From assembly GCA_030432025.1 (NCBI GenBank), contig JAUIIA010000008.1, positions 1 through 64,000 on the forward strand: a DNA stretch of 64,000 nucleotides, given 5' to 3'. A program made the position numbers and the translations under genes. The notes under the pieces are model-generated. The model was not told where the DNA came from and searched no databases. It saw only the letters and a program-made list of their open reading frames with translations. Numbering within the stretch: the stretch's first letter is position 1; each line of letters begins with the position of its first letter. Below, one piece after another: positions 18,934 to 23,275 of this stretch. The DNA is from Alphaproteobacteria bacterium (GTDB lineage Bacteria > Pseudomonadota > Alphaproteobacteria > Micavibrionales > Micavibrionaceae).

Positions 18934-20562
18934 ATGGAATTGCTGCAAGTTGCCGACAACGTCGCAAGAGAAAAGAATATCGACCGTGAAATCGTGATCA
19001 CGGCCATGGAGGAAGCGATCCAGAAAGCTGGCCGCTCCAAATATGGTCATGACCATGACATTCGTGCTGAAATCGACCGTAAGAACGGCAATATCGAGCT
19101 GAAGCGTTACCGCGAAGTGGTTGCCGACGATGTCGAAATTGAAAATGAAATGGCCCAACTTTATGTTGACCAAGCCAAGCGCATCAAAGGTGATGCCAAA
19201 GTTGGCGACTTCTTGATCGACGAGCTTCCACCTTTGGACTTTGGTCGTATTGCTGCACAGACAGCGAAACAGGTCATCATGCAAAAAGTACGCGAAGCCG
19301 AGCGTGCCCGTCAGTACGGTGAATTTAAAGACCGCGTTGGCGAAGTTATCAACGGTGTTGTTAAGCGTGTTGAATACGGTAACGTTACTGTTGACTTACA
19401 AGGTCGTGCAGAAGCCCTGCTTCGCCGCGACGAAGGTCTACCACGTGAGCACCTGAAAACCGGTGACCGCGTTCGTGCGATTATCTACGAAGTACGCGAA
19501 GAGATGCGTGGTCCGCAAATCTTCCTTTCACGTACTCACCCTGAATTCATGGCTAAACTGTTTACACAGGAAGTTCCTGAAATCTATGACGGTGTGATCG
19601 AAATCAAATCCGTTGCCCGTGACCCAGGTTCCCGTGCGAAAATTGCTGTTGTATCCAAAGACAGCGGTATCGACCCTGTTGGTGCTTGTGTAGGTATGCG
19701 CGGTTCCCGTGTGCAGGCTGTTGTAAACGAGCTTGGCGGTGAGAAGATCGACATTGTGCCTTGGCAAGAAGACATTGCAGGTTTTGTTGTAAACGCATTG
19801 CAACCTGCCGAAGTGACCAAAGTGGTTCTGGATGAAGACACACAGCGTATGGAAGTGGTTGTCCCTGATGAGCAGCTATCTCTTGCGATTGGCCGTCGCG
19901 GTCAGAACGTACGTCTGGCGTCCGATCTGGTTGGTTGGTACATCGATATCCTGACAGAAGCGCAAGAATCCGAGCGCCGTGCAGAAGAGTTCAAGACACG
20001 TTCCGCGTTGTTCATGGAAGCTCTGGACGTTGATGACGTTATCGCACACTTGCTGGTTGCTGAAGGCTTCACGAAGGTTGAAGAAGTTGCCGAAACTCCG
20101 GTTGAGGAACTGAACCAGATTGAAGGTTTTGAAGAAGAAATCTCCATCGAGCTGCAAAATCGTGCTGCTACATGGCTTGATGCCAAGCAGAAAGAGCTGG
20201 ATGAGAAGCAAAAAGAACTCGGTATTGCCGATGATTTGATGACAGCCAAGGGTTTGACCCCTGCGCAAATCATCAAGCTTGGTGAAGGCGATGTTAAGAC
20301 ACTCGATGATCTGGCTGATCTGGCTGCTGATGAATTGCAGGAGCTACTCGGTGAAGGTCAAATCACAGAGAAAGATGCGAACACCGTGATCATGGCTGCA
20401 CGTGAGCACTGGTTTGCAGAAGCAGATGCTAAAGCCGCCGAAGAGGCCGCAGAAGCTGAAACCGAGGGTGAACCTGCGGCGGAAGCGACTGAAGCGACTG
20501 AAGAAAATGCTGATGATGCAACCGATGGCGATGACAAAGTCGCCGCCGGTGGCGCAGCGTAA
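18934..20562 (+). CDS. nusA: transcription termination/antitermination factor NusA
   Basis: 542 residues: N-terminal RNAP-binding domain (1-125), S1 domain (about 135-200), two KH domains (about 205-345; GACVGMRGSRVQAVVNELGG and LAIGRRGQNVRLAS), then helix-hairpin-helix acidic repeats (from about 370) and an Ala/Glu-rich tail. A strong SD (GAGGAG) precedes the ATG. It is the second gene of the rimP-nusA-infB operon. The usual ylxR gene does not follow it. Confidence 0.96.
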   Translation: MELLQVADNVAREKNIDREIVITAMEEAIQKAGRSKYGHDHDIRAEIDRKNGNIELKRYREVVADDVEIENEMAQLYVDQAKRIKGDAKVGDFLIDELPPLDFGRIAAQTAKQVIMQKVREAERARQYGEFKDRVGEVINGVVKRVEYGNVTVDLQGRAEALLRRDEGLPREHLKTGDRVRAIIYEVREEMRGPQIFLSRTHPEFMAKLFTQEVPEIYDGVIEIKSVARDPGSRAKIAVVSKDSGIDPVGACVGMRGSRVQAVVNELGGEKIDIVPWQEDIAGFVVNALQPAEVTKVVLDEDTQRMEVVVPDEQLSLAIGRRGQNVRLASDLVGWYIDILTEAQESERRAEEFKTRSALFMEALDVDDVIAHLLVAEGFTKVEEVAETPVEELNQIEGFEEEISIELQNRAATWLDAKQKELDEKQKELGIADDLMTAKGLTPAQIIKLGEGDVKTLDDLADLAADELQELLGEGQITEKDANTVIMAAREHWFAEADAKAAEEAAEAETEGEPAAEATEATEENADDATDGDDKVAAGGAA

Positions 20563-20563
20563 G

Positions 20564-20670
20564 ACAATGTTAGGAAGGACCCCATACTCTTGGATAACGC
20601 CCAATTTACAGAGCGAAACCACCGAGTACTGTTTGCGATAGGCCGCAAACAGGGTCCTTCCTGTGTCTTA
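20564..20670 (+). ncRNA. candidate structured RNA between nusA and infB
   Basis: This non-coding stretch folds by eye into a closed multi-branch structure. The outer stem pairs AGGAAGGACCC (20572-20582) with GGGTCCTTCCT (20652-20662) and continues across a bulge as TAAGACA with TGTCTTA (20670 end). Inside, TACTC (20585-20589) pairs GAGTA (20624-20628) around a TTGG/CCAA hairpin. A 9 bp perfect hairpin CTGTTTGCG / CGCAAACAG (20629-20652) follows directly. No U-run follows, so it is not a simple terminator. Likely cis-acting in the infB leader; function unknown. Confidence 0.55.
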
Positions 20671-20733
20671 AAATCAAAGCCTAATCTATTACTTTTAAAG
20701 AATATTTTGCACTGCCGCTGTGGTGGTGTATAA

Positions 20734-20756
20734 CCCTTATGCGTCTTGATTAAGGG
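20734..20756 (+). promoter_or_regulatory. small hairpin before infB
   Basis: CCCTTA (20734-20739) pairs TAAGGG (20751-20756) in the infB 5' untranslated region, 24 bp before the ATG. With the larger structure upstream it makes the whole 217 bp nusA-infB gap rich in secondary structure. Confidence 0.35.
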
Positions 20757-20779
20757 CGTTAACAAATTAAGTGAATATA

Positions 20780-23275
20780 ATGAGCGAAGCTAAAAACAAA
20801 GAAAACGACGACAAAAACGAAGACGAAAAGAAGTCCGGCGGTAAGAAGACATTAAGTCTTGGCGGCACATTGAGCCTGAAAGGCGGTTCAGCGCCTTCCG
20901 GTCCACGTGCATCCAACCCCGGTACGGTTGCCGTCGAAGTTCGCCGTAAGCGAGCTGCGCCGACCACTCCAGAAAAAAGCGAGAGCAAGACAACTGAAGA
21001 GCAGCGCCTGACCGATGAAGAGCGCGAAGCCCGCGCCGAAGCTTTGAAAAAAGCACAAGCCTCCGGCGGTAAGACAAAAAGCTCTCTGCCTAAACGTCGC
21101 GTGACGATTGAAGACAAGAAAAAAGAAGAAGCCGCCGCAGCCGAAGACGCGGAAAAAACAGCCCGTGAAAAAGAGCTGGAAGAGCTGAAAAAAATCGAAG
21201 AAGAAGAAGGTGCCAAAGCGGCCGAAGTTCAAAAGAATGCTCCACCACTTCCGGATCCTGACTCCCCGGCGCGCCGTAAATTTGGCGATGACAAGGAGCC
21301 TGAAAGCTACCGTGACAAGTTGAAAAAGGCCCAGCCTAAATCAAAACCACGTACAAACAACAACCGCGGCGGTCGCATGACCGTTACGCAGGCGATTAAC
21401 CGCGACTACGAGCGTGACCGCGGCCCGTCAATGGCGGCACAGCGCCGTGCGCGTGAAAAAGCCCGTATGGCAGCCAAAGGCCCGCAAGAGCCGGCGCAAA
21501 AGGTTTTCCGCGAAGTGATCGTTCCTGAAACAATTACAGTCGGAGAACTGGCCAACCGTATGACAGAACCGACAGGTGAAGTTGTTAAAAAATTGATGGG
21601 GCTTGGTGTTATGGCCACAGTTACCCAAACAATCGACGCTGATACTGCGGAACTGGTTATTGAAGAATTCGGTCACAGCATCAAACGTGTTACCGACGCC
21701 GATGTCGAGATCGGTCTTGGTGGTGACGAGGACAAAGAAAAAGACCTTCAGCCTCGTCCGCCTGTTGTGACAATCATGGGTCACGTTGACCATGGTAAAA
21801 CCTCCCTGCTGGACGCCTTACGCGAAACCAATGTGGTTTCCGGTGAAGCAGGCGGAATTACTCAGCATATCGGTGCGTATCAGGTAAACATGGAATCAGG
21901 CCAGAAGATCACATTCCTTGACACACCAGGCCACGCAGCCTTCACTGAAATGCGTGCACGCGGTGCGCATGTAACCGACATTTGTGTGATTGTTGTATCC
22001 GCAGAAGACAGTGTTATGCCGCAAACGATTGAAGCGATCAGCCATGCGAAAGCGGCTGAAGTGCCGATCATCATCGCGGTGAACAAGATCGACCTCCCTG
22101 CAGCTGACCCTATGCGTGTTAAAACTGAATTGCTTCAACATGAAGTGGTTGTCGAGGACATGAGTGGTGACGTGCAGTGTGTTGAAGTCTCTGCCAAGCA
22201 AGGAACTAATCTGGACAAGCTTGAAGAAGCGATCTTGCTGCAGTCTGAATTACTTGAACTGAAAGCCAACCCTGGCCGTAATGCTGAAGGCGTTGTGGTT
22301 GAAGCCAAGCTTGAGCAAGGACGCGGTTCTGTTGCGACTGTTCTGGTTCAACGCGGTACATTGCGCGTTGGTGACGTGTTCGTAGCAGGTGCCGAATTCG
22401 GTAAGGTGCGTGCATTGGTGAACGACCAAGGCAAGAACGTCGATGAAGCCATCCCGGGCCAACCTGTAGAGGTTCTCGGTATTAACGGCACTCCTGATTC
22501 AGGCGACCCGTTCAACGTGACTAACGATGAACAAAAAGCCCGCGAAATTAGCGAATATCGTCAGCGCAAGCGCCGCGAGGCACTGGCTGCTGTGGCCGTG
22601 AGTGGCCGTACTACGATTGATGATCTTATCGCCGCACGTGAAGCGGGTGAGAAGACCGCCCTGCCCGTTATTGTTAAAGGTGACGTGCACGGTTCCGTCG
22701 AAGCCATCATGGGTTCATTCCAGAAAATGGCTGATGAAAATGAAGGTATCGAAGTGCAAGCCCTGCATGTCGGTGTTGGTGGTATCACGGAAAGCGACGT
22801 CAAACTCGCACAAGCGTCCGGCGGTATCATTATTGGCTTTAACGTCCGTGCAAACGCACAGGCTCGTGACCTTGCGCAGCGTGAAGGCGTGGACATCCGT
22901 TATTACAGCGTGATTTACGATGTTATCGACGATGCGAAGTCTATCCTGAGCGGTATGCTTTCCCCTGCTCACCGTGAAGAGTATCTGGGTCAAGCGACGA
23001 TCAAGCAGGTCTTCCGTGTCTCCAAAGTCGGTATGGTTGCCGGTTGTTATGTGGACATGGGCGTTGTTAAGCGCGGCTCCGGTGTTCGCTTGCTGCGTGA
23101 CGATGTCGTTATCCACGAAGGTACGCTGAAAACGCTTCAACGCTTCAAGGACGAAGTGAAGGAAGTCAAAGAAGGTACCGAGTGCGGTATGGCGTTCGAA
23201 AACTATGATGACATCAAAGAAGGCGATGTTATCGAATGTTACGAAGTTATCGAGGAAGCCCGTACGGTCACCTAA
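20780..23275 (+). CDS. infB: translation initiation factor IF-2
   Basis: 831 residues. A long charged N-terminal region with an alphaproteobacterial Lys/Glu/Ala-rich section (to about 200) leads to an IF2-N module ([16 protein letters not shown]), then the GTPase core with G1 GHVDHGKT at about 334-341, G3 DTPGHAAF and G4 NKID, then domains II-IV that bind fMet-tRNA. A GTG at 20771 is also in frame, but the ATG at 20780 is the more natural start; the SD is weak (AAGTGA). Confidence 0.97.

Follow-up and report, generated by a model that had tools for sequence, protein, structure and literature searches.

A folded start region of a small open reading frame, probably derived from ylxR, between nusA and infB in Micavibrionaceae-like alphaproteobacteria

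In the 64,000-nt stretch of DNA that was analysed (the window), an elaborate RNA fold and a small open reading frame (ORF) share the space between nusA and infB. Both the fold and the frame are well supported and the gap is not simply non-coding, contrary to the original prediction. The element is most likely the masked start of a small, near peptide-indifferent ORF, and not a non-coding sensor RNA. From its place and its foldedness, it is probably a translation-start region derived from ylxR.

The nusA gene (18934-20562, + strand) ends with a TAA stop codon at 20560-20562 and infB (20780-23275, + strand) begins with an ATG preceded by a weak Shine-Dalgarno (SD) sequence, leaving 217 bases between the two genes. 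The minimum free energy (MFE) fold of positions 20540-20700 reached -54.7 kcal/mol versus -35.7 kcal/mol for shuffled sequences (z -5.0; 0 of 200 shuffles as low), and its pair list places the whole RNA fold at 20560-20670 on the + strand. The outer stem, P1, joins 20571-20582 to 20652-20663 and consists of 11 perfect pairs (20572-20582 with 20652-20662) and a G-U pair (20571/20663). An 11-bp perfect helix arose in one of 200 shuffles of the nusA-infB gap. P1 is extended by TAAGACA (20560-20566) paired with TGTCTTA (20664-20670), which brings the nusA stop codon into the outermost pairs of the fold. The gap length, the 11 pairs and this extension are all present as originally predicted. Enclosed by P1 are a left hairpin (20585-20628, + strand), containing the TTG start codon region of the small ORF, and a right hairpin (20630-20651, + strand). 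The latter had been described as a perfect hairpin of 9 bp; the hairpin exists, but it has 8 bp in the predicted fold, where the ninth pair, C-G (20629/20652), would compete with P1. In L003, the closest relative, P1 and the right hairpin are kept; the TAAGACA stem, the TACTC/GAGTA stem and some pairs of the left hairpin are not, and a different hairpin is found there. Between L002 and L003, two of the eight pairs of the right hairpin (gapless alignment) and three of ten pairs of P1 (allowing a one-column slide) were changed on both sides. The compensatory change foreseen for the stems was thus seen in these two, but not in TACTC/GAGTA.

As had been suspected, the fold could not be named as a known class. 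No Rfam family was matched at the gathering threshold in the whole window, and the five matches obtained at E up to 10 in 20300-20900 were at chance level, none overlapping 20560-20670. No intrinsic terminator was detected on the + strand of 20300-20900, and the fold lacks a U run. In L024 and L113 (genus g4), the 3' strand of P1 runs into eight T, and a terminator role is also possible there. A multi-copy or mobile repeat was rejected, the 161-nt element having a single match in its own genome.

The small ORF (20590-20733, + strand) runs for 47 codons from a TTG start to a TAA stop. Its SD sequence GGAAGGA (20573-20579, + strand), 10 nt ahead of the TTG, is buried in P1, the 3' strand of which lies within the ORF from about codon 21. 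When loci were retrieved with nusA as tblastn query, a small ORF was found at this gap in 15 genomes of Micavibrionaceae-like alphaproteobacteria. Their 831 codons contain no in-frame stop, although 45.9 would be expected and the two other sense frames have 50 and 45. In 14 of the 15, the ORF start lies 25-36 nt past the stop codon of nusA when counted from its first base, and 22-33 nt when counted from its end; in L011, the former distance is 45. Nine ORFs start with TTG and six with ATG, their lengths range from 47 to 75 codons, and they stop between 47 nt before infB and 4 nt into it. Their SD strength averages -5.85 kcal/mol; L102 has neither an SD sequence nor an outer stem. With a strict criterion (start 20-40 nt past the nusA stop, SD present, a minimum of 45 codons), 13 of the 15 selected genomes qualified, versus a mean of 0.23 and a maximum of 2 in shuffled gaps of the same 15 (300 rounds). 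Because these 15 had been picked for having the frame, all 18 family genomes with a gap of 140-600 nt were also listed, of which 13 counted. The remaining five were L011, L012, L023, L051 and L102, with L011 and L102 still belonging to the 15. L051, from the genus of the window, has a 46-codon TTG frame starting at offset 47 and running into infB, with no usable SD, and was left uncounted. Read-through of the nusA stop codon was rejected as a general route into the ORF, since ORF and nusA share a reading frame in the window, whereas in L004, L006, L007, L137, L086 and L102 they do not.

Strong folding at the same place recurred across the 15 genomes, in line with what had been foreseen: the 142 nt past the nusA stop gave a mean z of -4.1, with 11 genomes at -3 or below, compared with -0.2 for control windows at infB starts and -0.6 for the nusA interior, none of which reached -3. 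In the window, the probability that the SD of the small ORF is unpaired was 0.000, versus 0.34 when the downstream sequence was shuffled. The SD and start codon paired with the ORF's own codons beyond shuffles in 10 of the 15 genomes (p<0.05; Fisher P 2.3e-14 over all 15), the five at p >= 0.05 being L007, L025, L035, L102 and L113. The MFE fold of L086 has no outer stem, yet its start-region pairing gave p 0.010. Testing SD exposure base by base gave a less clear picture, with values at or below 0.047 in 7 of 15 genomes and L006 and L102 going in the opposite direction. The 3' strand that pairs with the start region begins at codon 16-30 of the small ORF. The ribosome-binding site (RBS) of the small ORF is thus buried in structure, as in an RBS-masked coupled cistron.

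The survey covered 86 family genomes with a parsed nusA-infB gap (89 with a gap less three mis-parsed). No gap was obtained from L028, L046, L047, L071, L128, L131, L140 and L141, which were left out; L091, L136 and L135, with misplaced nusA or infB ends, were unused. Ten further relative loci, five of which (L142-L146) look like duplicates by their coordinates, were not added to the counts. In G002, a genome from the window's genus that is 96% complete, an infB match was absent and only weak GTPase matches were obtained, probably owing to an assembly gap. The gap exceeded 600 nt in 21 of the 86 genomes, all of which match the YlxR profile. The small ORF was found in 15, none of which matches this profile, and the other 50, with gaps of 13-232 nt, have neither. 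On a tree built from partial NusA and IF2 sequences (L091, L136, L110 and L070 left out), the genomes with the small ORF fall into two separated groups, g4+g17 and g1+g11+g25+part of g28, with low support at the deep nodes. Sister genomes may differ, as for L102, which has the ORF, and L098, which does not. The element is therefore patchy and dispensable; this weakly resolved tree is best explained by repeated loss, the element having been kept in two or more lineages that lack ylxR.

The YlxR profile (PF04296) had no match in this genome. It was unmatched in 81 of 104 family genomes including this one (63 of 79 good-quality ones) and matched in 80 of 115 genomes of the class. The view that the fold stands in place of ylxR was therefore upheld. 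Among the 15 ylxR loci examined in the family, the longest ylxR frame starts 21-28 nt past the nusA stop codon in eight, three of them with TTG; the other seven start elsewhere by the longest-frame rule. In all 15, the end of ylxR falls within a range from 34 nt ahead of infB to 11 nt inside it. Folding likewise marks the first 142 nt past nusA in ylxR genomes (mean z -3.4; z of -3 or lower in 13 of 21), with mean z of -1.1, -1.0 and -0.7 for the next three windows (n=21). Start-region pairing gave a negative result in the ylxR genomes (none of 21 at p<0.05; Fisher 0.58; L039, L123 and L124 had their starts mis-set to TGG), and what links the two forms is therefore their position and their being folded. 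The YlxR domain begins about 40-60 residues into the protein, and later in g3 (judged by eye on 13 proteins; a motif search matched two), which places the fold in a freely varying stretch of ylxR.

In genera g3 and g31 (11 sequences), 91.7% of the cells of a ylxR hairpin were paired and 16 were double-changed, each value being reached in 0 of 500 shuffles; pairing fell to 42-46% upon a one-column slide, and two of five measures were not clearly beyond shuffles (27/500 and 152/500). The ylxR codons of these genera encode a recurring peptide and a covarying 11-bp hairpin at once, as seen at L050, L119, L122, L123, L124, L054, L126, L127, L132, L133 and L045. In other families of the class with ylxR, the post-nusA fold gave a mixed picture, z ranging from 0.35 to -3.2; of the 17 loci parsed out of 30, one reached -3 or lower. 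In ylxR-less genomes of other families, no such fold was found, the lowest z being -2.4 (34 searched, 30 loci, 26 parsed). In one of these, L191, the gap measures 263 nt and contains a TTG frame of 43 codons at offset 31, but shows no fold (z 1.0).

How might such an element work? We give an even chance to the reading that the folded start region of ylxR persisted after the YlxR domain had gone and would now act as a minimal translated relay from nusA to infB. By hiding the start of the small ORF, the fold would keep free ribosomes off. Ribosomes ending nusA, the stop codon of which lies mostly at or shortly before the stem, would open the fold, then translate the small ORF, melt what remains of the structure and terminate near the weak-SD infB. 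The relay would couple nusA and infB translation and keep read-through mRNA covered by ribosomes, and the peptide sequence would hardly matter. The coupling, its direction and its effect on infB are predicted from this layout. The distance from the nusA stop to the small-ORF start, about 22-33 nt, is long for efficient coupling, going by the available text of a review (PMC12548453). More tentatively, and at somewhat below an even chance, we propose that after the loss of ylxR selection kept the self-masking start region and the open frame and not the protein. The result would be a near peptide-indifferent ribosome relay, kept in at least two ylxR-less lineages, with fold and openness conserved and most letters and residues turning over.

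The weak SD of infB (mean -2.47 kcal/mol in small-ORF genomes) is not special to the element, since genomes lacking the small ORF (-3.10, n=45) and those with ylxR (-3.60, n=22) have a weak infB SD too. In L115, L116 and L117 (genus g35), GCCTTT...AAAGGC pairing directly upstream of infB buries infB's own SD. Moreover, infB seems to have its own promoter. The promoter-like TTGCAC-N16-TATAAC lies at 20707-20732 (+ strand), has complementary spacer arms and overlaps the 3' end of the small ORF; it is the only match in the genome to the pattern TTGCAYN{10,17}GTGTATA and was not called by a standard promoter scan. A TTGCAY-N16/17-GTGTATA element is also found near infB in relatives, for example L104, L105, L086 and L007. 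In the 21 family genomes with this element, the spacer arms are complementary despite differing letters (73 of 109 inner pairs, versus an average of 47.5 in shuffles, none of 5000 reaching this value), and a promoter and a hairpin seem to be combined in this infB-proximal element. In L042 and L043, a similar promoter-like sequence occurs within ylxR, some 230 nt upstream of infB. Given the promoter-like sequence of infB, which in the window follows the fold, only read-through mRNA would be affected by the relay. Control of infB by the RNA, as first suggested, is thus possible but would be indirect, the masked start being that of the small ORF.

The same layout lends itself to the chief rival, an RNase III-type processing site or a 3'-end or stability element that parts the nusA and infB messages, the open frame only keeping ribosomes on the RNA. 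A long stem placed at the nusA stop, and closely followed by infB's own promoter-like sequence, agrees with it. So does the plain strong hairpin found just past nusA, instead of the small ORF, in L012, L016, L032 and L033, and in E. coli the metY-nusA-infB transcript is cut by RNase III, the position with respect to the gap not being given in the part of PMC5371410 available. We nevertheless regard a processing site as unlikely, because it leaves unexplained both the pairing of the start region with the frame's own codons in 10 of the 15 genomes and the close clustering of the starts.

A functional, fast-evolving micropeptide, toxin-like or other, with translation controlled by the fold, is in our view quite unlikely. 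Some type I toxin mRNAs do have their SD buried by their own coding sequence, as here, and the patchy distribution would suit such a peptide. Only 4 of 105 peptide pairs align at E<0.01, however. Two of these, which speak for a peptide, join members of different genera: L005/L007 (41.5% over 53 aa, E 4e-5) and L004/L113 (24 aa, E 0.003). Three of the four detectable similarities involve peptides other than those of the closest pair. The peptides differ greatly in hydropathy and charge (GRAVY -0.65 to 0.80), with a best 19-residue hydropathy mean of at least 1.8 in 2 of 15 peptides. No Pfam match over the cut-off was obtained for the 7 of 15 peptides scanned, including that of the window (L011 gave a sub-threshold match, E 0.15). 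The ORF is at the same locus throughout, which also argues against this reading. In two close pairs, dN/dS of the small ORF was about 0.8 (L002/L003) and 0.45 (L024/L113), so that some peptide constraint is possible, more so from the second value than from the first. In these pairs, all sites of the small ORF change much slower than the synonymous sites of nusA and infB; the letters are therefore constrained, mostly not via the peptide.

This slow divergence bears equally on the idea of a decaying, functionless ylxR remnant, which we hold to be very unlikely: the start and end do lie where those of ylxR often lie, many sister genomes lack fold and frame and the peptide is weakly constrained, but a remnant would not account for 831 codons without a stop, compensatory changes, folding above controls in both forms and divergence well under the synonymous divergence of the neighbouring genes.

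In the seven elements of genera g1 and g11, 7 of 163 columns are invariant and mean column identity is 51% in a letter-based alignment; no common loop or junction sequence was seen by eye in the folds. RNAalifold on the MAFFT alignment of the g1/g11 elements gave only a weak 6-pair hairpin because these sequences are not alignable by letters, and per-sequence fold tests were therefore used. A ligand- or protein-sensing autoregulatory RNA for infB, possibly NusA-related, as the original prediction had it, would fit a highly structured element upstream of infB without an Rfam match, but has little probability, since a conserved sequence core is missing and the masked RBS is that of the small ORF and not that of infB.

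If the start structure of ylxR did outlive its protein, operon architecture, and not gene products alone, would be under selection at nusA-infB. Both are core genes, and YlxR/RnpM is a recently recognised RNase P modulator in B. subtilis that is missing from many alphaproteobacteria. The 15 small ORFs with their hardly conserved peptide represent a class likely missed by annotation and by covariance-based RNA searches. We found no report of a folded nusA-infB element in these bacteria in the literature that was searched, although such a search is no proof of absence.

Several known systems resemble this one in part. The rimP-leader, a terminator ahead of rimP in rimP-nusA-infB operons (PMC2965389, available text), is also an RNA element of this operon, but sits ahead of rimP and not between nusA and infB. 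The start region of ylxR/rnpM, whose product associates with the RNase P RNA of B. subtilis (PMC11898665, in the portion available), has the same place, a TTG or ATG start, a stop near infB and, in this family, a folded 5' end, and it lies at the same distance from the nusA stop in 8 of 15 loci; here, in contrast, the YlxR domain is gone, and pairing of the start region is not significant in ylxR genomes. As far as the accessible part of PMC8092293 goes, mgtQ, between mgtC and mgtB of Salmonella, is likewise an intergenic small ORF that overlaps stem-loops and promotes translation of the next gene, mgtB, the role proposed here with respect to infB. However, mgtQ has 8 codons and frees the mgtB RBS, whereas the present ORFs have 47-75 codons and their own RBS is buried. 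Finally, in translational coupling by RNA unfolding, for which E. coli atpHA is an example (PMC12548453, in part; atpHA from its reference list), a buried RBS is expected to open upon upstream translation, as we predict for the small ORF. The present case differs in that the downstream cistron is tiny, its peptide is hardly conserved, the 3' strand of the stem lies deep inside the ORF and the coupling is a prediction. RBS-masked coupling and intergenic upstream ORFs are thus known arrangements, of which the folded small ORF at nusA-infB is most likely a new variant.
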